Below are positions 29,921-46,517 of a stretch of DNA of 64,000 nt, piece by piece. Made by a program: the position numbers and the translations under genes. Source of the DNA: Mitsuaria sp. PDC51 (GTDB lineage Bacteria > Pseudomonadota > Gammaproteobacteria > Burkholderiales > Burkholderiaceae_C). Every line of letters begins with the position of its first letter. Position 1 is the first letter of the stretch. The stretch covers positions 1,426,001 through 1,490,000 of the forward strand of contig NZ_FOZE01000001.1 in the NCBI RefSeq assembly GCF_900113225.1. The letters run 5' to 3'. The notes under the pieces are model-generated. The model did no database searches. It was given only the letters and a program-made list of their open reading frames with translations, and was not told where the DNA came from.

Positions 29921-29948
29921 TTGACGCCAGCCCGGCGGTGGTTAATCC
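29921..29948 (+). promoter_or_regulatory. Candidate sigma-70 promoter of the TRAP binding protein
   Basis: TTGACG (29921-29926) and TAATCC (29943-29948) are separated by 16 bp, after the pmbA terminator and 67 bp before the gene. GGAG lies ahead of the ATG at 30016. Confidence 0.5.
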
Positions 29949-30015
29949 TGCGTGCGCCCAAGGCCGCCCCGGGAGGGTGGTCCATACCAACGAAAGCAGC
30001 GAAACAGGAGACTTC

Positions 30016-31098
30016 ATGGAGCGTCGTTCCTTCGTCAAGAATGCCGGCCTGGCCGGCGTGCTGGCCGCCGGTGCGGCCCCGGCCATCGTGCATGCGCAGG
30101 CCAACATCCGCTGGCGCATGGCTTCGAGCTTCCCCAAGCAGCTCGACACGATCTACGGCGGCGGCGAGGTCTTCGCCAAGAAGGTCAGCGAGCTCAGCGG
30201 TGGCAAGTTCCAGATCAGCGTGCATGCGGGCGGCGAGCTGATGCCGGCCTTCGGCGTCGTCGACGGCGTGCAGAACGCGACGGTGGAGATCGCGCACACG
30301 GTGCCGTACTACTTCTTCGGCAAGGACGAGACCTTCGCGATCGGCGCGTCGATCCCGTTCGGGCTGAACTCGCGGCAGATGACCGCGTGGACCTTCCACG
30401 GCAACGGCCTGAAGCTGATGCGCGAGTTCTACCGGAACTACAACATCATCAACTTCCCCGGCGGCAACACCGGCGCGCAGATGGCGGGCTGGTATCGCAA
30501 GGAGATCAAGTCGGCGGCCGACTTCAAGGGCCTCAAGTTCCGCATCGGTGGCTTCGCCGGCCGGGTGATCGAGCGCATGGGCGGCGTGCCGCAGAACCTG
30601 CCGGGCGGCGAACTCTATTCGGCGCTGGAGAAGGGCACGATCGATGCGGCCGAGTGGGTGGGACCGTATGACGACCTGAAGCTGGGCTTCAACAAGGTCG
30701 CGCCGTTCTACTACTACCCCGGTTGGTGGGAAGGCGGCCCGCAGGTCGACTTCTACATCAACACCAAGGCCTACGAGGGCCTGTCGGCGGAGTACAAGGC
30801 GATCGTCGAGGCAGCGTCGGCCTACACCCATGTGGACATGCAGGCCAAGTACGACGTGCTGAACCCGCAGGCGCTCAAGCAGCTGGTGGCGGCCAAGACC
30901 AAGCTGATGCGCTTCCCGAAGGATGCGATGGACCTGGCGTTCAAGGAGTCGATGGCGCTGTACAGCGAGCTGTCGGCGAAGAACCCGAACTGGAAGAAGG
31001 TGTACGAGGATTACGCCAACTTCCGGCGCGACCAGAACCTGTGGTTCCGCTTCGCGGAAGCGGGCTTCGACGACTTCATGCAGTCGCAGCGGTTCTGA
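30016..31098 (+). CDS. TRAP-type solute-binding protein (DctP family), Tat-exported
   Basis: A 360-residue periplasmic binding protein. The N-terminus ERRSFVKNAGLAGVLAAGAAPAIVHAQ has a twin-arginine motif (RRSFVK) and AxA cleavage. The DctP fold follows: WRMASSFPKQLDTIYGGGEVFAKKV, MAGWYRKEIKSAADFKGLKFRIGGFAGRV and AEWVGPYDDLKLGF with the conserved carboxylate-binding Arg. It resembles the keto-acid-binding TakP type. No TRAP membrane subunits (dctQ/dctM) are nearby, so it must use distant permeases or act as a sensor. AGGAG precedes the start. Confidence 0.9.
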   Translation: MERRSFVKNAGLAGVLAAGAAPAIVHAQANIRWRMASSFPKQLDTIYGGGEVFAKKVSELSGGKFQISVHAGGELMPAFGVVDGVQNATVEIAHTVPYYFFGKDETFAIGASIPFGLNSRQMTAWTFHGNGLKLMREFYRNYNIINFPGGNTGAQMAGWYRKEIKSAADFKGLKFRIGGFAGRVIERMGGVPQNLPGGELYSALEKGTIDAAEWVGPYDDLKLGFNKVAPFYYYPGWWEGGPQVDFYINTKAYEGLSAEYKAIVEAASAYTHVDMQAKYDVLNPQALKQLVAAKTKLMRFPKDAMDLAFKESMALYSELSAKNPNWKKVYEDYANFRRDQNLWFRFAEAGFDDFMQSQRF

Positions 31099-31546: not shown

Positions 31547-32023
31547 TCATTTGATGCGGCGGTCGTAGTGCCACGCTCGCAGCTTGGTGGCCGTGATGTC
31601 CTTGATCGCTGGATGGATCGGGTTGATGAGCACGTTCGATTCTTCGGGAACGATCACCGACGGCACCACCAGGAGCGGTGATTCGCCTTGCGTGAGCCAT
31701 GCGTCACCGATGTCCAACGAAACCCGTCCCTCGGGAATAGCGCTCCAACCCGGGTTCAGGTCTTCCGCCCGAAGAACGGACTTGCAGGCCCACACCTCCT
31801 CCGGCACGTCGATCCGAATGAGATAGCGATTGAGCGGGAGCGAGCCATCTTGCAGATGCACGACAGTTTCCAGGCAGGACAGGGAGGCGGTGACCGATGT
31901 GTAGACAACCGGACGCCCAGCACGATTCCAACGGCCGCCCGAGATTTCCGCGCCCTTGCCGCTGAGGTCCTCGGCCAGGTACTCGCGGGTGTCCGTCGCG
32001 ATCCGCCAGAGCTGGATGCTCAC
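31547..32023 (-). CDS. RES-domain toxin (NAD+ phosphorylase/hydrolase type)
   Basis: A 158-residue RES-family protein. Members (for example MbcT, Res) deplete NAD+. The family's conserved Arg, Tyr and Glu positions are visible: LWRIATDTREY, GGRWNRAGRPVVYTS and SLSCLETVVH, with R-x-R-Y-like substrate contacts inferred from the family. The start overlaps the antitoxin stop by four bases (ATGA), so the antitoxin is translated first and the toxin is coupled to it. Confidence 0.9.
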   Translation of the reverse strand: MSIQLWRIATDTREYLAEDLSGKGAEISGGRWNRAGRPVVYTSVTASLSCLETVVHLQDGSLPLNRYLIRIDVPEEVWACKSVLRAEDLNPGWSAIPEGRVSLDIGDAWLTQGESPLLVVPSVIVPEESNVLINPIHPAIKDITATKLRAWHYDRRIK

Positions 32024-32571
32024 GCGTAGGCTCCGCTCTGCATGCGCGCGATCAGGTTGGACACCAACTGCTGACCTTCCGCGGTATCCATGAAATCAGC
32101 GGGCTTCCTGCCGCCCAACGCCGGCAGCGGACGATCCAGCCACGTCGCGGTCCAGGCGGGTGCATCGAAGTCCGTCGGGTCGCCGGACTCCTCGACCATC
32201 GCCTGCACTTGGCCGACGAGGCGCGCCATGCCGATGACCTTCGAGCTTTCGTCCGGCGAGAGCAGCTTGTTCTCGCGGGCCTTGCGCTCAACGGTCGCAC
32301 GCGCCAGTCCGAGCGTGCCCAGAAACTTCTCCTTCGGCATCGCCATCTGCTTCGCGAGGTCTTCTACGACGCAGGGATGGATGCCCTGCTTGACGATGAC
32401 GACCCGTTCCATGGGCTCGGCGTAGAACAGGATCCGGTAGGTCTCGGCGTTCAGATGTTCCGTGCAGGCGAACGCCAATACCTTCCTGGTCGATGTGAGC
32501 CGTCCGCTCTGGGTGAGCGCCTTGGATGAGGTCTTCATTGCTTGGCGTGCTGCTGAAATCGACTTGGCCAT
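32020..32571 (-). CDS. Xre/MbcA/ParS-type antitoxin
   Basis: A 183-residue antitoxin. The central part is a helix-turn-helix-like region (LAKQMAMPKEKFLGTLGLARATVERKAREN), and the C-terminus is the MbcA/ParS toxin-binding domain (LLSPDESSKVIGMARLVGQVQAMV, then ALGGRKPADFMDTAEGQQLV). The start at 32571 has AAGGAG seven bases upstream; an ATG 11 codons earlier (32604) is less likely. Two inverted repeats before the start suit autoregulation. The first 40 residues are basic and variable. Confidence 0.9.
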   Translation of the reverse strand: MAKSISAARQAMKTSSKALTQSGRLTSTRKVLAFACTEHLNAETYRILFYAEPMERVVIVKQGIHPCVVEDLAKQMAMPKEKFLGTLGLARATVERKARENKLLSPDESSKVIGMARLVGQVQAMVEESGDPTDFDAPAWTATWLDRPLPALGGRKPADFMDTAEGQQLVSNLIARMQSGAYA

Positions 32572-32574
32572 GAT

Positions 32575-32610
32575 GCGCTCCTTCGAGCGCTCAGTATTGC
32601 TCATTTGAGC
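32575..32610. promoter_or_regulatory. Operator-like inverted repeats before the antitoxin
   Basis: Two inverted repeats: GCGCTC-N4-GAGCGC at 32575-32590, overlapping the antitoxin ribosome-binding site, and GCTCA-TT-TGAGC at 32599-32610. They share the GCTC/GAGC half-site. Such sites fit autorepression by the antitoxin. Confidence 0.6.
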
Positions 32611-32835
32611 GGGTAATGCATCCATGGCGGAGCCCGGTGGGAATGGCCAGCTAATTCCAGGGGGCGCGGAGCGGGGTAGGGAAGGGCTTGCTCGCATGAA
32701 GCAAGTGTTCTCCCTTCACCGATGGCGAGCCATCCGTCAAAGCTGCGCTGATGACGTCATGGGCGACGTGAGCGAGTGGGGCCGCCGACTGGAATCAGTG
32801 GGGATATGTCCACAGCACTTGCCGCGCGCGTCCCC

Positions 32836-34872
32836 TCAATCCGCCCCAATCCTTCGCCCCAACACCTCCTGGATCGTCCGCGTCAGCGCCCCCAGTTCGA
32901 TCGGCTTGGCGACATACCCCTGGAACCCCGCCGCCAGCCCCTCCTGCCGGTCCGCGACCATCGCGAAGGCCGTCAGCGCCAGCGCCGGCAACTCCTCCGC
33001 GCTGCCGCCCGGCAGCTGCCTCACCGCCCGGATCAGCGAGCGGCCATCCATCTCCGGCATGCCGATGTCGGACACCAGCAGGTCGAAGCGCTCGCCGTCC
33101 GTCAGGCGCGACAGCACCTCCGCCGCGCTGCCCGCGACGCTGACCTTCGCGCCCAGCCGGCTCAGCGCCACCTGGCCCACTTCGCGCGCGTCCTCCTCGT
33201 CGTCGACCAGCAGCACCCGCACGCCCGACAGCGTCTCCTCCGAGAGCTCCACCGGCGCCGCGCTCGGCGGCGGCGGCAGGGCCTGGTCGGCCAGCATCGG
33301 CAGGCGCAGCTCGAAGCAGGCGCCGCCGCCCGGGCCGGGACTGGCGGCGCTGATGCGGCCCTTGTGCAACTGCGCGATCGCGCGCGCGATCGCCAGGCCC
33401 AGGCCGAGGCCGCCGACCTTGCGCGTGGACGAGCCGTCCTCCTGCCGCAGCCGGTCGAAGACGTAGGGCAGGAATTCCGGCGAGATGCCGCGCCCGGTGT
33501 CCTGCACGCGCAGCAGCGCCTCGCCGTCCGCGACCTCGACCTGCACGTCCACGCGTCCGCCGCCGTCGGTGAACTTGATCGCGTTGCCGATCAGGTTGGT
33601 CAGCACCTGCGCCAGCCGCTGCGCGTCGCCGGCGATCCACACCGGCTCGGGCGCGGCGCAGTTCAGCGCGACGCCCTTGCCCTGCGCCTCGTGCAGCGCG
33701 CCCAGCACCGACTCCGAGGCCAGCGCCGACAGGTCCAGCGGCGCCGTCTGCAGCACCAGCTTGCCGGCGGCCACCGCGCTCATGTCGAGCAGGTCGTTGA
33801 TCATCCGGCCCTGCAGCTGCGCATTGCGCCGGATCACCGCCGCGGCCTTGCCCAGCATCGGATGCGCGTCCGAGAAATTAGACAGGATGTCCGCCCAGCC
33901 GGTGATCGCGCTCAGCGGCGAGCGCAGCTCGTGCGACAGCACCGCCAGGAACTGGTCCTTCAGCTCGTTGGCCCGCTCCGCCTCCTCCTTGCCCTGGCGC
34001 AGCGCCTGCTGCGCCTCGTAGGCCGGCGTGGAGTCGCGGATGATCTTCGAGAACCCGGTCAGCGCGCCCGACGCGCTGAACAGCGGCGTCACCACGCCCT
34101 CGGCGCGCAGCCGCGTGCCGTCCTGGCGCATCAGCCAGCGGTCATCCCGGGCCGAGCCCTGCGTCAGCGCGAGCGCCAGCTCGTTCTCGAGCACGTCCGC
34201 GGCGCGGTCCTCCGGCGTCAGCAGGATTTCCGCCGACATGCCCCGCACCGCCTCCAGCGCATGGCCGAAGATCGTGCCGGCGGCGCGGTTCCAGTCGCGG
34301 ATCCGGCCCTCGGCGTCGAGCAGGATGACCGCATGGTCCTGCAGCGAATCCACCACCCGCGCATACAGCGCGTCGGCCTCGCGCAGCTGCGCCTCGACCT
34401 GCCGCTGCGCGTCGCGCTGGCGCACCTCGCGCAGCGCGCGGTCGATGGCCACCGGCAGCCGCGCCAGGCGGCCCTTCATGACGTAGTCGGTGGCGCCGCG
34501 CTTGAGCAGCTCCACCGTGTTCTCCTCGCCGATCACGCCCGACACGAAGATGAAGGGCGTGCCCGGCACCAGCCGCTGCGCCAGCGCCAGCGCCTCCGCG
34601 CCGGTGAAGCCCGGCAGCTGGTAGTCCGACAGGATCAGGTCGAAGCGCTGCGTCTCCAGCGCGCCCAGCAGTCCCGGCTCGTCCTTCACCCAGGTCACGC
34701 GCGCCCGCGGATGCGTGGTCTCCAGCGAGGCCAGCAGCAGCTCCGCGTCGAAAGTGGAATCCTCCAGCAGCAGGATCTCCAGCGGCGGCGCGCCAGCCGC
34801 GATGGCGGATGCGGCGCTCGTCGGCGCACCGGACGGGGGAAGGGGCGCGGAATCGGCCATCGCGTCATTCAT
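32836..34872 (-). CDS. Hybrid sensor kinase: REC-PAS-HisKA-HATPase-REC
   Basis: A 678-residue soluble hybrid histidine kinase. An N-terminal receiver (residues 31-145; Asp83, Lys133) precedes a PAS domain (about 170-285, VVDSLQDHAVILLDAEGRIRDWN). Then come HisKA with LSHELRSPL (His314), the HATPase (about 420-535; NLIGNAIKF, VGGLGLGLAI) and a C-terminal receiver (VLLVDDEEDAR, LLVSDIGMPEMDG, Asp near 606). No membrane segment is seen. It is the last gene of the phytochrome operon, overlapping the response regulator by eight bases. No HPt or DNA-binding partner is in the window. Confidence 0.93.
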   Translation of the reverse strand: MNDAMADSAPLPPSGAPTSAASAIAAGAPPLEILLLEDSTFDAELLLASLETTHPRARVTWVKDEPGLLGALETQRFDLILSDYQLPGFTGAEALALAQRLVPGTPFIFVSGVIGEENTVELLKRGATDYVMKGRLARLPVAIDRALREVRQRDAQRQVEAQLREADALYARVVDSLQDHAVILLDAEGRIRDWNRAAGTIFGHALEAVRGMSAEILLTPEDRAADVLENELALALTQGSARDDRWLMRQDGTRLRAEGVVTPLFSASGALTGFSKIIRDSTPAYEAQQALRQGKEEAERANELKDQFLAVLSHELRSPLSAITGWADILSNFSDAHPMLGKAAAVIRRNAQLQGRMINDLLDMSAVAAGKLVLQTAPLDLSALASESVLGALHEAQGKGVALNCAAPEPVWIAGDAQRLAQVLTNLIGNAIKFTDGGGRVDVQVEVADGEALLRVQDTGRGISPEFLPYVFDRLRQEDGSSTRKVGGLGLGLAIARAIAQLHKGRISAASPGPGGGACFELRLPMLADQALPPPPSAAPVELSEETLSGVRVLLVDDEEDAREVGQVALSRLGAKVSVAGSAAEVLSRLTDGERFDLLVSDIGMPEMDGRSLIRAVRQLPGGSAEELPALALTAFAMVADRQEGLAAGFQGYVAKPIELGALTRTIQEVLGRRIGAD

Positions 34873-35323
34873 AGCGCCGCGCGGCGCGCAGCGAGCCCGG
34901 TGGCGGCTCGTTCAGCACCGCCCAGAACACGCCCAGGTCGGCGATCGCGGCGACGAACTGCTTGAAGTCCACCGGCTTGACCACGTAGGCATTCACCCCC
35001 AGCGCATAGCTCTGCACCACGTCCGACTCCGTCTGCGACGAGGTCAGCATCACCACCGGGATGCTCTTGAGCGCCTCGGTGGCGCGCACCGCCTTGAGCA
35101 CTTCCAGCCCGTTGACCTTGGGCAGTTTCAGGTCGAGCAGGATGACCGCCGGATTGCCCTCGGCGCGGTCGGCATGGGCGCCTTCGCGGTTGAGGTAGTC
35201 CAGCGCCTCGGCGCCGTCGCGCACGATGATCACCTCGTTGGCGAGCTGGCTGCGTTCGAGCGCGACCAGCGTCAGCTCGAGGTCGCGGGCGTCGTCTTCG
35301 ACAAGCAGGATGGGCTTGAGCAT
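34865..35323 (-). CDS. Single-domain response regulator (Rcp1-like)
   Basis: A 152-residue stand-alone receiver with an acidic pocket (VEDDARD), Asp64 in ILLDLKLPKVNG and Lys116 in YVVKPVDFKQF. Its long beta4-alpha4 region and C-terminal extension match Rcp1/BphR regulators paired with bacteriophytochromes. It lies 11 bp after bphP and overlaps the hybrid kinase by eight bases, so all are probably cotranscribed. It likely takes phosphate from BphP; the output is unknown. Confidence 0.93.
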   Translation of the reverse strand: MLKPILLVEDDARDLELTLVALERSQLANEVIIVRDGAEALDYLNREGAHADRAEGNPAVILLDLKLPKVNGLEVLKAVRATEALKSIPVVMLTSSQTESDVVQSYALGVNAYVVKPVDFKQFVAAIADLGVFWAVLNEPPPGSLRAARRYE

Positions 35324-35334
35324 GGCGTTCGGCT

Positions 35335-37704
35335 TCAGGAATCAGGAGAGAGGGAATCGGCGGCGCGAGGCGCCCCTGCGCCGCCGGGGGACAGTGATCG
35401 GTGGGTGTCGGTGTCGATGTTGGCCTCGGCCGCCGCGTCGCCCTCGGGCGCCTGGGCCTCCTGCATCGCGCGCGTGGGCAGGGTGAAGCTGAAGCGGGCG
35501 CCGCGCTCGGGCTCGCCCCAGGCGTCGACCTGGCCGCCATGGCGCTCGACGATGCGCCGCACGCTGGCCAGGCCGATGCCGGTGCCCTCGAAGCTCTCGC
35601 TCTGGTGCAGTCGCTGGAACACGCCGAACAGCTTGCCCACGTACTTCATCTGGAAGCCCACGCCGTTGTCGGCGATGCTCAGGCCCACGCCGGTCTCGTC
35701 CTCGACGGCGCTGATCTCGATGCGCGCGACCTCGCGCGGACGCGTGTACTTCACCGCGTTGGCCACCAGGTTGCGCACGGCCACCTGCAGCAGCACCGGG
35801 TCGCCCCACAGCCGCGGCAGCGGCCGCTGGATCACCCAGTCGATGCGGCGGTCCTTGTTCATCGCGTTCTGCTCGGCCACCAGGTCGTCGATCATGGGGC
35901 CGGTGTGGATGGACGCGTGCTTGATCGCCGAGCGTCCCATCCGCGAGAAGTCCAGCAGCGCGTCCACCAACTGCCCGGCATGGGCGGAGGCCTCCTTCAC
36001 ATGCGCGAGGTAGCGCTGCGAGCGGGCCGACAGCCCCTGGCCCTCCATCTCCAGCACCAGGTCGACGAAGCCCGCGATGTGGCGCATCGGCGCGCGCAGG
36101 TCATGCGACACGGTGTAGGAAAAGGCTTCCAGCTCCTTGTTCACGCGGCCGAGCTCCATGGCCACCTCGGCCATCTCCTCGGCGCGGCGCAGCACCACGC
36201 CGATCAGCGCCTGCCGCAGCTCCTGCACCGCATGGACCTCGCCCGAGGTCCAGGGCAGCGAGCGGCCGCCGACCTGCTCCTTCCAGCTCGAGAAGCTGCG
36301 GCGCGGATGCAGCCGCGTGTCGCGCTCCGTCGTGGGCGTCTTGTGCGGATTGCCGGCCCACACCACGGTCTGCACGATCTCGGGACGGAACCACACGATG
36401 TGATGGCGATGCAGCCGGGAGATCGAGATCGCCAGCACGCCCGCGGTGCCGGCCAGCGCCGTCGCCAGCGACGGCGGCACGTCCAGCGCCAGGCGGTCGC
36501 TGTGCCAGACCGGGTCGGCGCGATTGGCCAGCCACTGGCCCAGCGTCAGCAGCGTCTCGCGGTCCGGCGTCTCGCCCACCGACCAGCAGCTGTCGTTCAG
36601 GATCACCGCCGCGCCGCAGGCCCGGCCCAGTCGCAGCAGCGGCCCCGGTTCCTCCACCAGGCGCTGCAGCGTCGCGTCGCTGTCCGCCAGGTGCGCGACG
36701 ATCGCCAGTGTCAGCTGGCGCAGGCGCAGCTGCTCGGTGACCTGCTCGTTCTCTTCCTTCGCCTCGATCTGCAGCGACAGCAGCTGCCCCAGGTGCTCGC
36801 AGGCCATGCGCGTCTGCCAGGACAGCTGGCGCGGCGCGTGGTCGTGGCAGGACACCAGCCCCCACAGCTGTCCGCGCACGATGATGGACACCGACATCGA
36901 CGCCAGCGTCCGCATGTTGCGCATGTATTCGAGGTGGACCGGCGACACGCTGCGCAGCGCGGCCTGGGACAAGTCCAGCGCCGTCCCGTCGCGGCCGTCG
37001 ACGAAGCGCACCGGCACCGGCTCGTAATGGGCGTCGGCGATCAGGCGGATGTGATTGAGGCGGTACAGCTCGCGCGCCTGCGGCGGGATGTCCGAGGCCG
37101 GAAAGCGGTGGCCGGCATAGGCGTCGTAGCCGCCGTCGAGCGCCTCGGCGAGCACCTCGCCATGGCCCTCGGCATCGAAGCGGTAGGCCAGGCAGCGGCC
37201 GAAGCCGGTCAGGCGCTTCATCTCCGCGACCACCACCCGGCACAGCTCGTCCACCGCGGCGGTGCGCTGCATCATCGGCACCAGGTGCCGGGCCAGGCTG
37301 TAGATCGGCGCGCGGTTGCCGCTCTCCTCGACGTCGGCCTCCAGCTCGAAATAACCGCGCTCGCCGAGCCGATGGCCCGACACATGCAGGCGACGCCCCC
37401 CGATCACCAACGTGCCGCAGGACACCGGGCCCTCGCCGTCGATCCACGCATGGCGGGCCGCGCGTACCGGATCGAGCACGCCCTCGATGCGCGCCGGCAG
37501 CAGGTCGCCCGACTCCGGCAGCAGCGTGCGCCAGTTCTCGCTGTAGGCGACCAGCGCGCCATCGCGCCAGTCCACCGCGACCAGCCAGCCGTGTGGCTGG
37601 ATCGCGCCGGGGATGCGGATCGGCTCATTGGCGCACTGCGCCATCTGGCGGTCCATCGACGTCGGCGACGGCCCCTGGCCCAAGGTGGCGACGTCCCCGT
37701 TCAT
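35335..37704 (-). CDS. bphP: Bacteriophytochrome histidine kinase
   Basis: A 789-residue red/far-red photoreceptor kinase. Cys24 in MAQCANEPIRIPGAIQPHG is at the place where biliverdin is attached in bacteriophytochromes. Domains follow in order: PAS (to about 125), GAF with HRFPASDIPPQARELY, PHY with the tongue motif HPRRSFSSWKEQV, HisKA with TVSHDLRAPMRH, and HATPase. All key chromophore residues expected by eye are present. The start overlaps the heme oxygenase stop by four bases, coupling apoprotein to biliverdin synthesis. Confidence 0.96.
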   Translation of the reverse strand: MNGDVATLGQGPSPTSMDRQMAQCANEPIRIPGAIQPHGWLVAVDWRDGALVAYSENWRTLLPESGDLLPARIEGVLDPVRAARHAWIDGEGPVSCGTLVIGGRRLHVSGHRLGERGYFELEADVEESGNRAPIYSLARHLVPMMQRTAAVDELCRVVVAEMKRLTGFGRCLAYRFDAEGHGEVLAEALDGGYDAYAGHRFPASDIPPQARELYRLNHIRLIADAHYEPVPVRFVDGRDGTALDLSQAALRSVSPVHLEYMRNMRTLASMSVSIIVRGQLWGLVSCHDHAPRQLSWQTRMACEHLGQLLSLQIEAKEENEQVTEQLRLRQLTLAIVAHLADSDATLQRLVEEPGPLLRLGRACGAAVILNDSCWSVGETPDRETLLTLGQWLANRADPVWHSDRLALDVPPSLATALAGTAGVLAISISRLHRHHIVWFRPEIVQTVVWAGNPHKTPTTERDTRLHPRRSFSSWKEQVGGRSLPWTSGEVHAVQELRQALIGVVLRRAEEMAEVAMELGRVNKELEAFSYTVSHDLRAPMRHIAGFVDLVLEMEGQGLSARSQRYLAHVKEASAHAGQLVDALLDFSRMGRSAIKHASIHTGPMIDDLVAEQNAMNKDRRIDWVIQRPLPRLWGDPVLLQVAVRNLVANAVKYTRPREVARIEISAVEDETGVGLSIADNGVGFQMKYVGKLFGVFQRLHQSESFEGTGIGLASVRRIVERHGGQVDAWGEPERGARFSFTLPTRAMQEAQAPEGDAAAEANIDTDTHRSLSPGGAGAPRAADSLSPDS

Positions 37705-38408
37705 TGCGGGGTTGCGACCGACGTGGCCGCGGCGGTCGAAACGAATGACATCGACGGAGCGGTCGGAGCGGTCGCTGCGACCGGCAGGTCCGGCGCCGCG
37801 GCGCCCACGGACTCGAAGGTCTCGATCAGCGCCTGGAAGGTCTGGACGGCCGCGCGGCAGGCGGCGTTGCGATCTGTCTCCTCGGCGCCGGCCTGCGCAT
37901 CGGCGAGCTGTCGGAACTCGCGCCACATCGCGCCGGTGCGCTCGCCGAAGCCGTGGAAATAGGCGGCGCCGCGCTCCGGGGTCAGGCCGTGCCGCGCGAG
38001 CAGCATCGGCGTCAGCACCTGGCCGCCCAGCGCCGAGCCCTCCAGCACGTACAGCGAGCCGAAGGCGGCGGCCGGGCTGTCCAGTCGCAGCCGGTGCTGC
38101 GAGGCCCGGGCCGCGGCGCGCATCGTGTCGTCGTGGGGGAGCGCGAGCACGGCCAGGTCGTGCGCGGCGAACGGGGCGCGCCGGCGCGCGTCGAACCACG
38201 GCCGCAGCGACTCGGGCAGCGCGTGGCGCACGCGCTGTTCCCAGAGCTGAAGGAATTCATGGAAGCCGCGCAGGATCCGACCGTAGCGTGCGAGCGGCAT
38301 CGGCGCCCCGAGCCGGAGCAGCGCCTCGATCTCGTCGTGCAGGGGGGCGGTGCAGCGGCGCAGGCGGGGCAGCAACTCGGTGGAAATGGGAGCGTCGGTC
38401 GTCGTCAT
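37701..38408 (-). CDS. bphO: Biliverdin-producing heme oxygenase
   Basis: Cleaves heme to biliverdin IX-alpha, iron and CO, supplying the phytochrome chromophore. The 235-residue protein has the proximal histidine in CTAPLHDEIEAL (His24) and the distal-helix region LYVLEGSALGGQVL. The last 30 residues are an Ala/Thr-rich tail. It leads the bphO-bphP-regulator-kinase operon. A possible promoter lies upstream: CATAAT at 38482-38487 with TTTGCC 15 bp further out on the minus strand. Confidence 0.92.
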   Translation of the reverse strand: MTTTDAPISTELLPRLRRCTAPLHDEIEALLRLGAPMPLARYGRILRGFHEFLQLWEQRVRHALPESLRPWFDARRRAPFAAHDLAVLALPHDDTMRAAARASQHRLRLDSPAAAFGSLYVLEGSALGGQVLTPMLLARHGLTPERGAAYFHGFGERTGAMWREFRQLADAQAGAEETDRNAACRAAVQTFQALIETFESVGAAAPDLPVAATAPTAPSMSFVSTAAATSVATPQ

Positions 38409-38700
38409 GGAACTCGGCGGGCGGTCGGGCGCGCGGACGGCGGGGGCGGCGCGAGGGCCGGACCCGGTCGCCAAGGCGCGGATTATGGTCAGAAAGGCGC
38501 AGGGCAAAGATCCGTCCCGACCCGGGGTGGAATCGCCGTCCCCCCATTCCGGTGGCAGCCTGAAGCGTCGTTCGTTCCTCGGCGCGCCGAAGATGGCGAG
38601 GGCACGGGAATTGCCAACAGAGGGCCATGCCTGCCCGTCGAGCGCCGCTGGCGCGCATGTACGGGAACTTCTCCATGGACCTCTTGCCGCAGGGTTTGCC

Positions 38701-39075
38701 ATGCAACCGTACGCCGTCATCGTCGACGACAACCTCGAATCCAGCGAGACGCTGGCCATCCTTCTGGAGCTGGAGGGCTACACCGCCGCCACCGCCGCGA
38801 CCCTGGCCGAGGCGCGCGCCCGCATTGCCGCGCGGCGGCCGGACGCGCTGATCCTGGACCGGGCACTGCCGGACGGGCAGGGCATGGACTTCGTCAGCGA
38901 GGCGCTCAGCGGTGGTCCGATGACGATCGTCATGCTGACCGGTACCTCGGATCCGGGCGATGCCGCCGAGGCGATCCGGCGCGGCGCCAGCGCCTACCTG
39001 GTCAAGCCCGCCACCATCCAGCAGCTCAAGGCGGTGCTGGACGAGGCGCAGCAGGGCGTGCGTCAGGCTGCCTGA
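38701..39075 (+). CDS. Single-domain response regulator, divergent from bphO
   Basis: A 124-residue receiver: VIVDDNLESSE (acidic pair), Asp53 in LILDRALPDGQG and Lys102 in AYLVKPATIQQL. There is no output domain. It is divergent from the phytochrome operon across 292 bp and may be another target of its kinases. The start at 38701 opens the first beta-strand; the frame is open upstream but unlike any receiver. The 292-bp gap 38409-38700 holds only the possible bphO promoter. Confidence 0.87.
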   Translation: MQPYAVIVDDNLESSETLAILLELEGYTAATAATLAEARARIAARRPDALILDRALPDGQGMDFVSEALSGGPMTIVMLTGTSDPGDAAEAIRRGASAYLVKPATIQQLKAVLDEAQQGVRQAA

Positions 39076-39394: not shown

Positions 39395-40727
<1,333 letters not shown>

Positions 40728-40735
<8 letters not shown>

Positions 40736-42620
40736 ACTGACCCTCCTCGGCCTGCCAGGTGTCGACCTCCAGGTCGAATTCGAAAATCATGCCCTGGTCC
40801 AGCCGGTGCGCCCGCAGCGCGCCGCCGAACTCGTGGACGATCTTGGACGAGATCACCAGTCCCAGCCCCAGGCCTTCGCCGGCGGGCTTGGTGGTGAAGA
40901 ACGGCTCGAACAGCCGCGGCAGCAGCGCCTCGCTCAAGCCCGGCCCGCTGTCCTGCACCTGCACGAGCACGCGCCGGCCTTCGTCCGCCGGCACCGCCGC
41001 CACGCGCAGCCGGCGCGGGTCCTCGGGGCCGTCGGGCGGCGGCTCCGACGCGATCGCGTCGATGCCGTTGCCCAGCAGATTCACCAGCACCTGCTCGAGC
41101 CGGTTGGACTCGGCGCTGACGCGCAGCCCCGGCGGCACGTCGACCTCCACCGCCAGGTCCAGCGCGCGGGTGCGGTGTTCCAGCAGCAGCCGCGCGTTGT
41201 TCACGCAGGCCAGCAGCGACACGGCCGTGCGCGCCGGCTCCGCCTTGCGGGCGAAGCTCTTGAGCTGGCGGGTGATTTGTCCCATGCGCTCGACCATGTC
41301 GTCCATCGTCTGCAGGTTGTCCGCGACCGCTTGCAGGCGGCCGGCCTCCAGCAGCCGTTGCGAATTCCGTGCCAGCGCGCGCAAGGCCGTCAGCGGCTGG
41401 TTGACCTCATGCGACAAACCGGCCGACATCTGCCCCAGCACCGCGAGTTTGCTGGTCTGCAGCAGCTCGCCCTCGGCCTGTCTGCGCTGGGCGATCTGTT
41501 CGAGCAGCTCCTCGTTGATCTGGCGGAGTTCCGCCGTGCGTTCGTCGACGATTCTTTCCAGCTGCGCGTGCGCGTTCTGCAATTCGGTCTTGGCCTGGAA
41601 GAGTTGTCGCAGCGCGCGCCGGCGCGACGCGAGGTACAGCAGCAGCATCCCGATCGCCGCGCCGAAGGCCGCGCCGCTCCAGGCCGCCAGCCGCGCCTGG
41701 CGCCGCACCTCGGACAGGTCGGACAGCGCCAGCAGCCGCAGGCCCAGCGGCAACAGTTGGCGCTCCTGCGCCAGCAGCGTCGTGCTGGCCGGCGCCGGCG
41801 CGCGCACCAGCAGGCTGTTGTAGGCCTCCAGCGCGCCGGGCAGGCCCAGGTCCGGACCAACGCGCGGATAACGCGCGCTGGCCTGCAGCCGGTCGCGCTC
41901 GGACGCGTCGGCGCGGTTGAGCACGGCGTAGCGCCATTCCTCCACCGAGCTCATGATCACCACGCCCTGGTCGTCGGAGACCAGGATGCGCTCCCCCTGC
42001 GAGCGCAGGCCCAGGTCGACCCAGGTCGATTCCAGCGGCGCCAGGTTGAGCTTGACCACGATCACGCCCTGCAGCTGCTGGTGGCGGCGCAGCGGATGCA
42101 GCAGGAAGAAGTTGGTCGAGCCGCTCAGCCCCGCCTGGCCGGCGTCGGAGGCGAAGAAGTGATGGCGGTCCTGCTCGATGGCCTGCTGCAGGCGCAGCGG
42201 CGGGGTCAGCGGCTCGCTGGAGGCGAGCACGCGGCCCTCGGGATCGGCGACGAAGATCTGGGTCGTGCCCGCGCGCACGTTGACCCGCGCCAGCGCCAGG
42301 CTGGCCGATTTGCGCAGGGCCTCGTCGTCGGGATGCTCGACCAGCCGGGTGACGTCCCCGTCGATGGCCAGCAGGCTGGGCAGGTAGGCATGGCGGCCCA
42401 GCTCGGTCTGCAGGTTGGACGCGTAGAGCTCCAGCCGCTCGGTGGCCAGGGCGCTGAGCTGGTCGAGGCTGGCGCGCTCGCTGAGGCGGTGGCCCAGCAG
42501 CAGCCCCAGCAGCATCAGCACGCCGGTCAGGTAGAGGTAGAAGGTCGGCCGGCCCAGGAAGTACGCCAGCCGCTGGCGGGCGGAGGAGGTGGCGAAGGAG
42601 GAGGTGACGACCGGTTCCAT
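40728..42620 (-). CDS. dctB: DctB-type membrane sensor kinase
   Basis: A 630-residue sensor with one transmembrane helix near residues 28-44, a periplasmic double-PDC/Cache domain, a second helix (AAFGAAIGMLLLYLAS), a coiled coil, HisKA with GLSHEVNQPLTALRALARN, and HATPase (NLLGNGIDAIA, GLGLGLVISSKIV). DctB relatives sense C4-dicarboxylates or acidic amino acids. The start at 42620 (MEPVVTSSF) is chosen because the frame further upstream runs into regulatory DNA. It is cotranscribed with dctD and divergent from livHMGF. Confidence 0.92.
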
Positions 42621-42729
42621 GGGAGACGAAAAATCGCCGTCCAGTGTGCCCAAGTTGGCGCGCGCCTTGCACCCGGCGTACCGGCTTTTTTGCGACTGGC
42701 GAGGATTCGCCCGGCTGGCTAGGCGGTTT

Positions 42730-42745
42730 GTGCGGATTTCCGCAC
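42730..42745. promoter_or_regulatory. Putative activator (UAS) site for the DctD-like regulator
   Basis: GTGCGGA-TT-TCCGCAC is a perfect 7+7 inverted repeat about 95 bp upstream of the sigma-54 promoter at 42833. Its spacing and form suit a Fis-type enhancer-binding protein. Its resemblance to DctD sites is from memory of the family. Confidence 0.7.
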
Positions 42746-42832
42746 TTCGTTGCGTCGCCGAGACTGGGGAGACATGCCCGGCGGGTGCGCATGGTGGCGC
42801 CCGCGTCGGTGAATACCCTTGAAACGGACGGA

Positions 42833-42849
42833 TTGGCACGCGGGTTGCA
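42833..42849 (+). promoter_or_regulatory. Sigma-54 promoter of livHMGF
   Basis: TTGGCACG-N4-TTGCA matches the -24/-12 consensus YTGGCACGrNNNTTGCW at every fixed base, except that the purine position is C. GG (42835-42836) and GC (42847-42848) are 10 bp apart as required. Transcription would start near 42860, about 44 bp before livH. Confidence 0.85.
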
Positions 42850-42903
42850 CCCGCAAGCGCCGTCACGCGGCGCGAGCCGTGTCCAACAACATGCTGGGGC
42901 CTT

Positions 42904-43827
42904 ATGGAGATACTTTTTCAGCAGATCATCAACGGGCTGGTGCTCGGGAGCATGTATGCCCTCGTCGCGCTGGGCTACACGATGGTTTACGGGATCATCA
43001 ACCTCATCAACTTCGCGCACGGCGAGGTGCTGATGGCAGGCGCCCTGGTGAGCTGGACCGTCGTCACGGCGCTGGCTGGCCTGGGCCTGCCGGGCTGGCT
43101 GCTGATGATCATCGCGCTGGCCTGCGCGATCGTCGTCTGCACGCTGCTCAACTTCGCGATCGAGAAGATCGCCTACCGGCCGCTGCGCAACGCCCCCAGA
43201 CTCGCGCCGCTGATCACCGCCATGGGCATGTCGCTGCTGCTGCAGACGCTGGCCATGATCATCTGGAAGCCGAACCCCAAGCCCTTCCCGCAGCTGCTGC
43301 CCACCGACCCGATCCAGATCGGTGGCGCGGTGATCACGGTGACGCAGGTGCTGATCCTGGTCACCACGGTCGTGATCCTGGGCGGCCTGCTGTTCCTGGT
43401 GAACCACACCAAGATGGGCCGCGCGATGCGCGCCACCGCCGAGAACCCGCGCGTGGCCGCGCTGATGGGCGTCAAGCCTGACGCGGTCATCTCGCTGACC
43501 TTCATCATCGGCGCCGCGCTGGCCGCGGTGGCCGGCCTGATGTGGGCCGCCAACTACGGCACCGTGCAGCATTCGATGGGCTTCATGCCCGGCCTGAAGG
43601 CCTTCACCGCCGCGGTGCTGGGTGGCATCGGCAACCTCGCCGGCGCGATGGTCGGCGGCGTGCTGCTGGGCCTGATCGAGGCCATCGGCGCCGGTTACCT
43701 CGGCGACCTGACCGGCGGCGTGCTGGGCAGCCATTACGCCGACATCTTCGCCTTCATCGCGCTGATCCTGGTGCTGACGCTGCGTCCGTCGGGCCTGCTG
43801 GGCGAACGCGTCGCCGATCGCGCCTGA
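42904..43827 (+). CDS. livH: Branched-chain amino-acid ABC transporter permease LivH
   Basis: A 307-residue inner-membrane permease with about eight helices. The N-terminus QQIINGLVLGSMYALVALGYTMVYGIINLINFAHGEVLM is the LivH signature. AENPRVAALMGVKPDAVI is the cytoplasmic loop that contacts the ATPases. It is the first gene of livHMGF and is preceded by a sigma-54 promoter. No substrate-binding protein (livJ/K) is in the window, so the true substrate is open: a branched-chain or other amino acid, or a related compound such as an amide. Confidence 0.95.
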   Translation: MEILFQQIINGLVLGSMYALVALGYTMVYGIINLINFAHGEVLMAGALVSWTVVTALAGLGLPGWLLMIIALACAIVVCTLLNFAIEKIAYRPLRNAPRLAPLITAMGMSLLLQTLAMIIWKPNPKPFPQLLPTDPIQIGGAVITVTQVLILVTTVVILGGLLFLVNHTKMGRAMRATAENPRVAALMGVKPDAVISLTFIIGAALAAVAGLMWAANYGTVQHSMGFMPGLKAFTAAVLGGIGNLAGAMVGGVLLGLIEAIGAGYLGDLTGGVLGSHYADIFAFIALILVLTLRPSGLLGERVADRA

Positions 43828-43837
43828 GGAGCCTCAC

Positions 43838-44962
43838 ATGCACAACAAATCCAAGCTGATCACCTTCCTGATCGCCGGCGTGCTGCTGCTGGTGCTGCCG
43901 CTGTTCGCGCAGTCCTTCGGCAACGGCCCGGTGCGCATCATCGACCTGGCGCTGCTGTACGTGCTGCTGGCGCTGGGCCTGAACATCGTCGTGGGCTACG
44001 CCGGCCTGCTGGACCTGGGCTACGTCGCGTTCTACGCGGTGGGCGCGTATCTCTTCGCGCTGCTCAACAGCCCGCACCTGGCGGAGAACTTCGAGCACAT
44101 CGCCGCCGCCTTCCCCAACGGGCTGCACCTGCCGCTGCTGCTGGCCATCGCGCTGGCGGCGCTGCTGGCGGGGCTGTTCGGCGTGCTGCTGGGCGCGCCG
44201 ACGCTGAAGCTGCGCGGCGACTACCTGGCCATCGTGACGCTGGGCTTCGGCGAGATCATCCGCGTGTTCCTGAACAACATGGAATACCCGCTGAACATCA
44301 CCAACGGCCCGCGCGGCATCGGCCAGATCGACGGCGTCCACTTCCTGGGCTTCGAGTTCAGCCAGAACCACACCTTCTTCGGGATCGAGATCAACTCGGT
44401 GTCGATGTACTACTACCTGTTCCTGGCGCTGGTGATCGCGTCGGTGGTGATCTGCTACCGGCTCGAGAACTCCCGCATCGGCCGCGCCTGGATGGCCATC
44501 CGCGAGGACGAGATCGCCGCCAAGGCCATGGGCATCAACACCCGCAACATGAAGCTGCTGGCCTTCGGCATGGGCGCGACCTTCGGCGGCGTGGCCGGCT
44601 CGATGTTCGGCGCCTTCCAGGGCTTCGTCTCGCCGGAGTCGTTCAGCCTGCAGGAGTCGGTGATGATCGTGGCCATGGTCGTGCTGGGCGGCATCGGCCA
44701 CATCCCGGGCGTGATCCTGGGCGCGCTGCTGCTGGCGGCGCTGCCGGAAGTGCTGCGCTACGTCGCCGGTCCGCTGCAGGAGATGACCGACGGCCGCCTG
44801 GACGCGGCCATCCTGCGCCAGTTGCTGATCGCGCTGGCGATGATCGTGATCATGCTCATGCGTCCGCGCGGCCTGTGGCCGTCGCCCGAGCACGGCAAGT
44901 CGCGGCCGCTGCCGCCCGGGGCGCAGCCGCCCGCGAACGCCGGCAGCGCCATCAACGCCTGA
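43838..44962 (+). CDS. livM: Branched-chain amino-acid ABC transporter permease LivM
   Basis: A 374-residue permease with about ten helices, including LYVLLALGLNIVVGYAGLLDLGYVAFYAVGAY and GDYLAIVTLGFGEIIRVFLNN, typical of LivM. The EAA-like coupling loop is IREDEIAAKAMGINTRNMKL. The last 25 residues are Pro/Gly-rich and variable. GAGGAG precedes the start, ten bases after livH. Confidence 0.95.
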   Translation: MHNKSKLITFLIAGVLLLVLPLFAQSFGNGPVRIIDLALLYVLLALGLNIVVGYAGLLDLGYVAFYAVGAYLFALLNSPHLAENFEHIAAAFPNGLHLPLLLAIALAALLAGLFGVLLGAPTLKLRGDYLAIVTLGFGEIIRVFLNNMEYPLNITNGPRGIGQIDGVHFLGFEFSQNHTFFGIEINSVSMYYYLFLALVIASVVICYRLENSRIGRAWMAIREDEIAAKAMGINTRNMKLLAFGMGATFGGVAGSMFGAFQGFVSPESFSLQESVMIVAMVVLGGIGHIPGVILGALLLAALPEVLRYVAGPLQEMTDGRLDAAILRQLLIALAMIVIMLMRPRGLWPSPEHGKSRPLPPGAQPPANAGSAINA

Positions 44963-44984
44963 TCCGTGCCAGGAGCCAGAAAGA

Positions 44985-45776
44985 ATGACTGAAACCGTAC
45001 TGAAAGTGGCCGGCGCGTCCAAGCGCTTCGGCGGCCTGCAGGCGCTGTCGGATGTGGGCATCGAGATCAAGAAGGGCCAGGTCTATGGCCTGATCGGTCC
45101 CAACGGCGCCGGCAAGACGACCTTCTTCAATGTGATCACCGGCCTGTACGTGCCCGATGGCGGCACCTTCGAGCTGGGCGGCCAGGCCTACAAGCCGCAG
45201 GCCGTGCACCAGGTGGCCAAGACCGGCATCGCGCGCACCTTCCAGAACATCCGGCTGTTCGCCGAGATGACCGCGCTGGAGAACGTGATGGTGGGCCGCC
45301 ATGTGCGCACCCATTCGGGCCTGATGGGCGCCGTGTTCCGCACACCCGGCTTCAAGAAGGAAGAGGCCGAGATCACCGCCCGCGCCCGCGAACTGCTGGC
45401 CTATGTCGGCATCGAGCGGCATGCCGACTTCAAGGCCCGCACGCTGTCCTACGGCGACCAGCGCCGGCTCGAGATCGCGCGCGCGCTGGCGACCGATCCC
45501 AAGCTGATCGCGCTGGACGAGCCCGCCGCCGGCATGAACGCGACCGAGAAGGTGGTGCTGCGCGAGCTGATCGACCGCATCCGCAACGACGGCCGCACGA
45601 TCCTGCTGATCGAGCACGACGTGAAGCTGGTGATGGGCCTGTGCGACCACGTGTCGGTGCTGGACTACGGCAAGCTCATCGCCTCCGGCACGCCGGCGGA
45701 AGTGCAGCGCAACCCCAAGGTGATCGAGGCCTACCTCGGCGCCCACGCGGCGCAGGAAGCGCACGCGGCCCCCTGA
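44985..45776 (+). CDS. livG: Branched-chain amino-acid ABC transporter ATPase LivG
   Basis: A 263-residue ATPase: Walker A GPNGAGKTT, the Q-loop in the FQNIRLF region, ABC signature as LSYGDQRRLEIARAL, Walker B KLIALDEPAAGMN and the switch His in LIEHDVKLVMGLCD. The C-terminal extension (GTPAEVQRNPKVIEAYLG) is typical of LivG. AGGAG precedes the start. Confidence 0.96.
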   Translation: MTETVLKVAGASKRFGGLQALSDVGIEIKKGQVYGLIGPNGAGKTTFFNVITGLYVPDGGTFELGGQAYKPQAVHQVAKTGIARTFQNIRLFAEMTALENVMVGRHVRTHSGLMGAVFRTPGFKKEEAEITARARELLAYVGIERHADFKARTLSYGDQRRLEIARALATDPKLIALDEPAAGMNATEKVVLRELIDRIRNDGRTILLIEHDVKLVMGLCDHVSVLDYGKLIASGTPAEVQRNPKVIEAYLGAHAAQEAHAAP

Positions 45777-45800
45777 TCCCGACCTACGGAAATCGAAAAG

Positions 45801-46517
45801 ATGGCAGACAACATCCTCCTCCAGGTCGAGGGCCTCAAGGTGGCCTACGGCGGCATCCAGGCAGTCAAGGGCGTGGACTTCGACGTGCGCGAGGGCGAGC
45901 TCGTCTCGCTGATCGGCGCCAACGGCGCAGGCAAGACGACGACGCTCAAGGCGGTCACCGGGCTGCAGCCGGTGGCCGTGGGCGACATCAAGTTCCTGGG
46001 CCGCTCGATCAAGGGCCAGGGCGCCTGGAACCTGGCCAAGCAGGGCCTGGTGATGGTGCCGGAAGGCCGTGGCACGTTCACGCGCATGACCATCACCGAG
46101 AACCTGCAGATGGGTGCGTTCATCCGCAAGGACAACGAGATCGCCGACGACATCGAGAAAGTGTTCGGCCTGTTCCCTCGCTTGAAGGAGCGCCGCGCGC
46201 AGCTTGCCGGCACGATGTCCGGCGGCGAGCAGCAGATGCTGGCGATGGGCCGCGCGCTGATGGCGCGCCCCAAGCTGCTGCTGCTGGACGAGCCGTCGAT
46301 GGGCCTGTCGCCGATCATGGTCGACAAGATCTTCGAGGTCGTGAACGACATCCACCAGCAGGGCGTGACGGTGCTGCTGGTCGAGCAGAACGCCAGCCGC
46401 GCGCTGGAACTGGCCACCCGTGGCTACGTGATGGAGTCGGGCGCGATCACGATGAAGGGCGACGGCAAGGCGCTGTTGAACGATCCGAAGGTGCGCGCGG
46501 CCTACCTCGGCGAGTGA
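45801..46517 (+). CDS. livF: Branched-chain amino-acid ABC transporter ATPase LivF
   Basis: A 238-residue ATPase: Walker A GANGAGKTTT, VPEGRGTFTRMT, signature MSGGEQQMLAMGRALM, Walker B LLLLDEPSMGLSP and switch region LLVEQNASRALELA. It completes livHMGF with LivG and is followed by two hairpins that probably end the operon. Confidence 0.96.
   Translation: MADNILLQVEGLKVAYGGIQAVKGVDFDVREGELVSLIGANGAGKTTTLKAVTGLQPVAVGDIKFLGRSIKGQGAWNLAKQGLVMVPEGRGTFTRMTITENLQMGAFIRKDNEIADDIEKVFGLFPRLKERRAQLAGTMSGGEQQMLAMGRALMARPKLLLLDEPSMGLSPIMVDKIFEVVNDIHQQGVTVLLVEQNASRALELATRGYVMESGAITMKGDGKALLNDPKVRAAYLGE

Follow-up and report, generated by a model that had tools for sequence, protein, structure and literature searches.

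The 64,000-nucleotide stretch of DNA analysed here (the window) contains a divergent gap at 42621-42903, flanked on one side by the genes of a kinase-regulator pair (minus strand) and on the other by livHMGF (42904-46517, plus strand). The question raised by this locus is whether the pair, which is of the DctB/DctD type, governs the importer genes through a promoter in the gap. Judging from sequence, it is highly probable that a DctBD-family two-component system is wired to this branched-chain-type ABC importer via a sigma-54 promoter. The features of the locus are as follows.

39395..40735, minus strand: DctD-type response regulator, with a receiver, a sigma-54 AAA+ domain bearing a GAFTSA loop from residue 221, and a Fis-type HTH
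40728..42620, minus strand: DctB-type membrane kinase, with a dCache sensor lacking the canonical pocket motif, plus HisKA and HATPase domains
42697..42712, plus strand: weaker operator, TGGCGAGGATTCGCCC, located 33 bp upstream of the strong operator
42730..42745, plus strand: strong DctD-type operator, GTGCGGATTTCCGCAC, equal to GTGCGGA-TT-TCCGCAC
42808..42818, plus strand: conserved GGT-N4-ACC(C) box, upstream of -24
42833..42849, plus strand: predicted sigma-54 (-24/-12) promoter of livH, TTGGCACG-N4-TTGCA
42904..43827, plus strand: livH, permease
43838..44962, plus strand: livM, permease
44985..45776, plus strand: livG, ATPase
45801..46517, plus strand: livF, ATPase

Both elements named in the initial annotation, a sigma-54 consensus site at 42833-42849 and a perfect inverted repeat upstream of it, were confirmed in the sequence. 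The sigma-54 element consists of TTGGCACG (42833-42840), CGGG (42841-42844) and TTGCA (42845-42849), and 87 bp lie between it and the inverted repeat. The adjacent pair had been proposed as the type of activator that such a promoter needs, and its domains, receiver match (1qkk) and recognition helix fit DctD. The importer comprises two BPD_transp_2 permeases and two ATPases, all four of which fell short of the NCBIfam equivalog cut-offs for the named E. coli type, and its likely Peripla_BP_6 partner is unlinked in this genome. Two rpoN genes were found (C4:1798796-1799254 and C6:2599491-2599964). The nearest named relative among the scanned genomes was Roseateles chitinivorans, with 98% identity in the kinase and 100% in LivH.

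In the proposed mechanism, the dCache kinase would sense a periplasmic signal and phosphorylate the DctD-type activator, which would bind the tandem operators at 42697-42712 and 42730-42745, three helical turns apart. The DNA would then loop, the AAA+ ring of the activator would open the promoter at 42833-42849, and livHMGF would be transcribed, with the likely binding protein of the importer supplied from C6:1640381-1641520. Sigma-54 wiring of a DctBD-type system to livHMGF, as first suggested, is supported as far as sequence can show, namely by the arrangement of genes and sites and its conservation, by an identical operator core, by the families of the two proteins and by gene order in the case of the binding protein. 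Four points come in addition to the initial annotation: a second operator in tandem, the likely partner that binds the substrate, the lack of the DctB pocket motif in the sensor and the altered GAFTGA loop.

Two minor elements of the gap were also observed. AGTGTGCCCAA, at 42643-42653 close to the kinase start, was kept in most of the gaps printed and may belong to the dctB promoter. At 42656-42671 there is another sigma-54-like site, which was similar in 5 of 15 genus gaps and degenerate in the others, and was rejected.

Likeness to dctA-dctBD and the sensor kinase

In the accessible text of PMC11077940, the DctD-binding sequence of Rhizobium is given as TGTGCGgaaatCCGCACA, with two sites upstream of dctA. 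The region used for comparison was from S. meliloti pSymB, which is unannotated and in which the dctA ORF was recognised by DctA models. Its dctA-dctBD gap contains ATGTGCGGATTTCCGCACAG, with a 16-bp core identical to the window operator, and a sigma-54 site, CTGGCACGCATGTTGC, facing dctA; a scan of this gap for a second operator with up to 3 mismatches found none. Of 16 residues in the recognition helix of the window regulator, 13 agree with S. meliloti DctD and 6 with AauR; over the whole regulator, identity is higher to AauR (56.5%) than to S. meliloti DctD (about 49-50%). On these matches the inverted repeat at 42730-42745 is classed as a DctD-type operator and, because operator core, sigma-54 site and recognition helix agree, the window is read as the dctA-dctBD plan with livHMGF in place of dctA. 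The two systems share divergent transporter and dctBD genes, a transporter-facing sigma-54 site, a double-PAS sensor fold, the identical 16-bp operator core and a near-identical recognition helix, whereas the S. meliloti system has dctA as its target, an FRDYF pocket segment in the sensor and Gly in the GAFTGA loop.

The sensor domain was modelled as a double PAS (pLDDT 81.7), and the model was nearest to the DctB structures 3by9, 2zbb, 3e4o and 3e4p (TM 0.71-0.74). DctB structures were also nearest in a profile search (E 3e-22 and about 8e-16). The Pfam dCache_1 score was under the cut-off (41.5 vs 45 bits), as was that of S. meliloti DctB. The pocket motif [FY]RxY[FW] was present in 6/6 reference kinases (the pocket residues in S. 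meliloti being Y149, R152 and K197), whereas the segment is deleted or replaced in the window kinase and the motif was found in 0/59 relatives. In an alignment of the window kinase with 27 of the 59 relatives, other residues were conserved in its place: S135 and F156 (28/28 each), G167 (24/28), S/T168 (26/28), T/S169 (25/28), D/N170 (26/28) and K/R190 (26/28). This conservation speaks for a different ligand rather than for decay. By its pocket motif the kinase would not be a C4-dicarboxylate DctB and, as the motif is absent and other residues are conserved there, we do not think that a C4-dicarboxylate is the ligand, at least in the usual mode of binding; our guess is that the ligand is more likely an amino acid or a related carboxylate carried by the importer. 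Three sister kinases (L244-L246) are also without the motif and a fourth (L243) has KRPYF, indicating by sequence that its loss is not peculiar to livH-linked kinases.

The same residues bear on whether this is an ordinary DctBD system, with a kinase still sensing C4-dicarboxylates and livHMGF as one more member of a dicarboxylate regulon. Fold and operator are indeed those of DctBD, the genome holds dicarboxylate carriers, and DctD2 of Vibrio vulnificus drives non-transport genes with dicarboxylic acids as inducers, according to the part of PMC9040800 that was accessible. Such a reading is nevertheless unlikely, given a motif common to all reference kinases and lacking in every relative, the sensor's own set of conserved residues, and carrier genes whose flanks, as far as read, are without a convincing operator or sigma-54 site. 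The statement in the initial annotation that no dicarboxylate transporter is present was inexact, since the genome encodes an SDF carrier of the DctA type together with three DctP proteins, one of which lies in the window. No sigma-54 site was found in the flanks read for these four genes, and the best operator match there had 2 mismatches (at L263), the whole-genome operator list extending to 2 mismatches only. The DctP-family TRAP binding protein of the window (29938-31098) is encoded about 8.3 kb from the regulator gene, with no DctQ or DctM among the neighbouring ORFs given to Pfam.

The receiver of the regulator had 1qkk, DctD, as its best PDB match (E 1.7e-33). In its GAFTSA loop, Ser takes the place of the second Gly of GAFTGA, a replacement common to 59/59 relatives (GAFTSA in 21, GSFTSA in 30, GAYTSA in 3 and GAFTSS in 5), and the six reference regulators keep this Gly. 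Four sister systems have GAFTSA or GAFTTA, and ten more distant family members have GAFTGA or GAYTGA. From the altered loop of the sister systems it follows that the change predates the link to livH. According to the text available from PMC2941729, NorR with Ser at the second Gly is active without signal and still partly controlled; since that protein stays active, the GAFTGA feature is by analogy probably altered, not lost, and Ser could weaken the sigma-54 contact. Among 35 kinase-regulator rows placed in a tree, those of the 19 livH-linked systems formed one clade (100/100) adjoined by the four sister systems; the tree held three reference systems only, the rows of S. meliloti, S. mexicanum and AauSR being absent as their kinase and regulator names differed. 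Three of the four sister loci (L243-L246), read in part, had mixed neighbours (SBP_bac_3, TctC and gamma-glutamyltranspeptidase).

A fuller reading of this clade is put forward tentatively, at somewhat less than an even chance. The output side would have been kept, with the rhizobial operator core letter for letter, the dicarboxylate pocket would have been lost, with a different conserved pocket in its place (S135, FFA[AS][DN] at 155-159, G[ST][TS][DN] at 167-170 and K/R190), and GAFTGA would have become GAFTSA; the system would read an amino acid or a liganded binding protein and act on livHMGF and, in one genus, on the unlinked binding-protein gene.

Conservation of the gap

The genus set comprised 16 genomes, all with a kinase orthologue (16/16), and livH was divergent from the kinase gene in 15. 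In the remaining genome (G009, the record of L136), the contig stops within the first livH codons, and a sigma-54 site precedes livH. The exact palindrome was found in 8 of the 15 genus gaps, and the remainder drift to forms like GTGCGGATTTTCGCCC. Scanning named genomes yielded 60 loci, of which L170 was dropped as a non-orthologue. The 59 Burkholderiales loci that remained are from Roseateles, Pelomonas, Paucibacter, Ideonella, Inhella, Xylophilus and related genera; among the first eleven, many come from genomes that are also in the genus set. The regulator gene followed the kinase gene within 100 bp in 58 of the 59 loci, L146 being the exception. The livH start was on the contig in 47 loci; among the other 12, ten end in early livH, as judged by eye, and two (L123 and L164) stop earlier.

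Absence of both sites from relatives with this gene order had been set beforehand as refuting the wiring; when the gap was compared across Burkholderiales, both kinds of site were present in 47/47 gaps, these loci being mutually related and hence not independent. In each gap a sigma-54 site with a score of 19 or more out of 23 was located 61-98 bp before the livH ATG, with the GG and GC of the -24/-12 elements at conserved spacing, and each had a DctD-type site with up to 2 mismatches to GKGYGGANNTCCGCMC. The L169 gap had only a 2-mismatch operator and a pair with 6 mismatches. When operator pairs were scanned at spacings of 20 to 59, the best pair was 32-33 bp apart in 33/33 non-redundant gaps (one tied with 34), compared with 5% of shuffled gaps; among all 47 gaps, one had its best pair at 55 bp. 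The distance from the end of the best operator to -24 ranged from 64 to 186 bp, consistent with a periodicity of about 10.9 bp; 14 distinct distances were compared with random sets (0/5000), a figure that overstates the case because neighbouring values are not independent.

This phasing bears on a second alternative, that the sigma-54 promoter is real and served mainly by another enhancer-binding protein (e.g. NtrC), the DctD-type sites controlling dctBD itself. Regulators of the same class, about 40-50% identical over parts, are encoded in the genome, and the gap is common to dctB and livH. The operators, however, stay in set phase to the sigma-54 site though the distances vary, gene order and both sites are retained together, and the plan is closely that of S. 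meliloti dctA-dctBD, which leaves this alternative very improbable.

Taken singly, the sites are only moderately rare, and neither is striking by motif counts. TGGCACGN4TTGCA occurs at 3 exact places in the 5.85-Mb genome. The genome scan called for in the initial annotation revealed no other exact copy of GTGCGGA-TT-TCCGCAC (1 place in the genome); a one-mismatch site was found before a binding-protein gene. With up to 2 mismatches, the repeat had 34 genome places vs 51 for a backward control, and was therefore not commoner than the control; as a degenerate operator, it was equalled in number of matches by 18 of 100 window shuffles. The sites stand above chance because they are conserved among relatives, not because the motifs are rare. 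Chance motifs in a GC-rich gap, for which the weak rarity of single motifs would speak, can be set aside as the site type, order and spacing are kept in 47/47 gaps while the remaining gap diverges.

The GGT-N4-ACC box (A or G first) was found before the sigma-54 site in 43 of the 47 gaps, at 15, 26 and 37 bp in 2, 35 and 6 loci, respectively; the steps are of 11 bp, or one helical turn. GTGAATACCCTTGAAAC occurs once in its own genome, even at 3 mismatches. IHF was considered as the binder of the box upstream of -24; its consensus fits poorly, and the TTGAAAC part is absent in many relatives.

In a family survey, 30 of 150 genomes matched the kinase with an E-value of 1e-60 or lower, and 28 loci were read with flanks of about 1.5 kb (two already known were omitted). 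Within these flanks, livH adjoined the kinase gene in 12 of the 14 loci with kinase identity of at least 46% (the other two, L233 and L240, having short contigs) and in 0 of the 14 with identity below 44%. It was also observed that the contig ends at or in the liv genes, within 3 kb past the kinase start, in 24 of the 59 loci (L123, L134-L136, L139, L143-L149, L151-L159, L162, L164 and L165). In several genomes the binding protein is present in at least 2 close copies, some of which follow livF, and near-identical liv copies may break assemblies.

The unlinked binding protein

The importer had been described as an ABC transporter without its own binding protein. This holds at the locus, the window having none of the 16 Peripla_BP_6 proteins of the genome, but not for the genome, in which C6:1640381-1641520 encodes the likely partner. 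In L163 and L166 a homologue (79-80%) lies directly behind livF in the kinase-linked locus, and on this gene order the product is likely the LivK of this importer. A DctD-type site with one mismatch lies 217 bp upstream of the ATG of this gene. The protein was present in 16/16 genus genomes, and 15 of the 16 upstream regions had a DctD-type site with 0-2 mismatches at -216 to -259 (L095 being without); those of L093 and L094 had a second such site 33 bp away. DctD-type control possibly reaches the unlinked gene in this one genus, as its upstream sites suggest. In 24 of 25 genomes picked from the 59, the protein was found at 79% or more, with fragments only in G026. Two results complicate the picture. 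A search for DctD-type sites with up to 3 mismatches in 28 upstream regions outside the genus gave a single match (L220), and this fell within the coding sequence of a preceding copy. In the 16 genus regions, searched on both strands with GG and GC required, no sigma-54 site was found at a shared place before the gene.

Other elements were observed before this gene. In Ideonella L210 and L212, TGGCATGGGGATTGCG forms a strong sigma-54 site, located at -172 and -175, and an inverted repeat in the leader, CGTTGAG-AA-CTCAACG (L022:1670-1690), is genus-wide and similar in other genera. An importer of Acidovorax whose binding protein is encoded elsewhere is reportedly known from fitness data, and was not taken as evidence.

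Known systems and neighbouring genes

DctBD-type control of a transporter is already known, and AauS/AauR-aatJQMP of Pseudomonas extends it to an amino-acid ABC importer, controlled via RpoN according to the accessible text of PMC7962211. That system resembles the present one in type of regulator (56.5% identical) and class of target; unlike it, AauSR, as far as described there, uses the operator TTCGG-N4-CCGAA, responds to acidic amino acids and serves a polar-type importer. It also differs in its recognition helix (6/16), in the FRAYW kept by the AauS sensor and in the HAFTGA loop of AauR. In Vibrio vulnificus, DctD2 likewise acts on targets other than dicarboxylate transport, the exopolysaccharide clusters, where sites were sought with the rhizobial sequence (PMC11077940, accessible text); the targets differ from those here and the signal includes dicarboxylic acids, as stated in the portion of PMC9040800 available. 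Known LivHMGF-LivK importers also have two permeases, two ATPases and a Peripla_BP_6 binding protein, whereas the present one scores below the E. coli-type equivalog cut-offs, has its binding protein unlinked and appears to be under DctD-type control.

In a literature search, with most subscription journals outside its reach, no report of a DctBD system controlling livHMGF and no mention of a 'gaftsa' loop were found among the matches listed. What appears new from the sequence is the branched-chain-type importer as the target, a sensor that has the DctB fold and lacks the DctB pocket motif, the altered GAFTGA loop and, possibly, an extension of control to the unlinked gene of the binding protein in one genus. 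If true, this would be a clean natural case of signal-to-transporter rewiring, with one regulator family and operator sequence common to alpha- and betaproteobacteria and another transporter and another sensor pocket. It would offer a testable handle on ligand change in DctB-type sensors, on the natural role of Ser in the GAFTGA loop and on regulation of an importer with an unlinked binding protein.

Elsewhere in the window, a RES-domain gene with an Xre/MbcA/ParS-type partner (31547-32697) is likely a toxin-antitoxin system. The minus-strand genes at 32836-38759, encoding a hybrid PAS kinase, a bacteriophytochrome kinase and a heme-oxygenase-like ORF, likely form a phytochrome unit.
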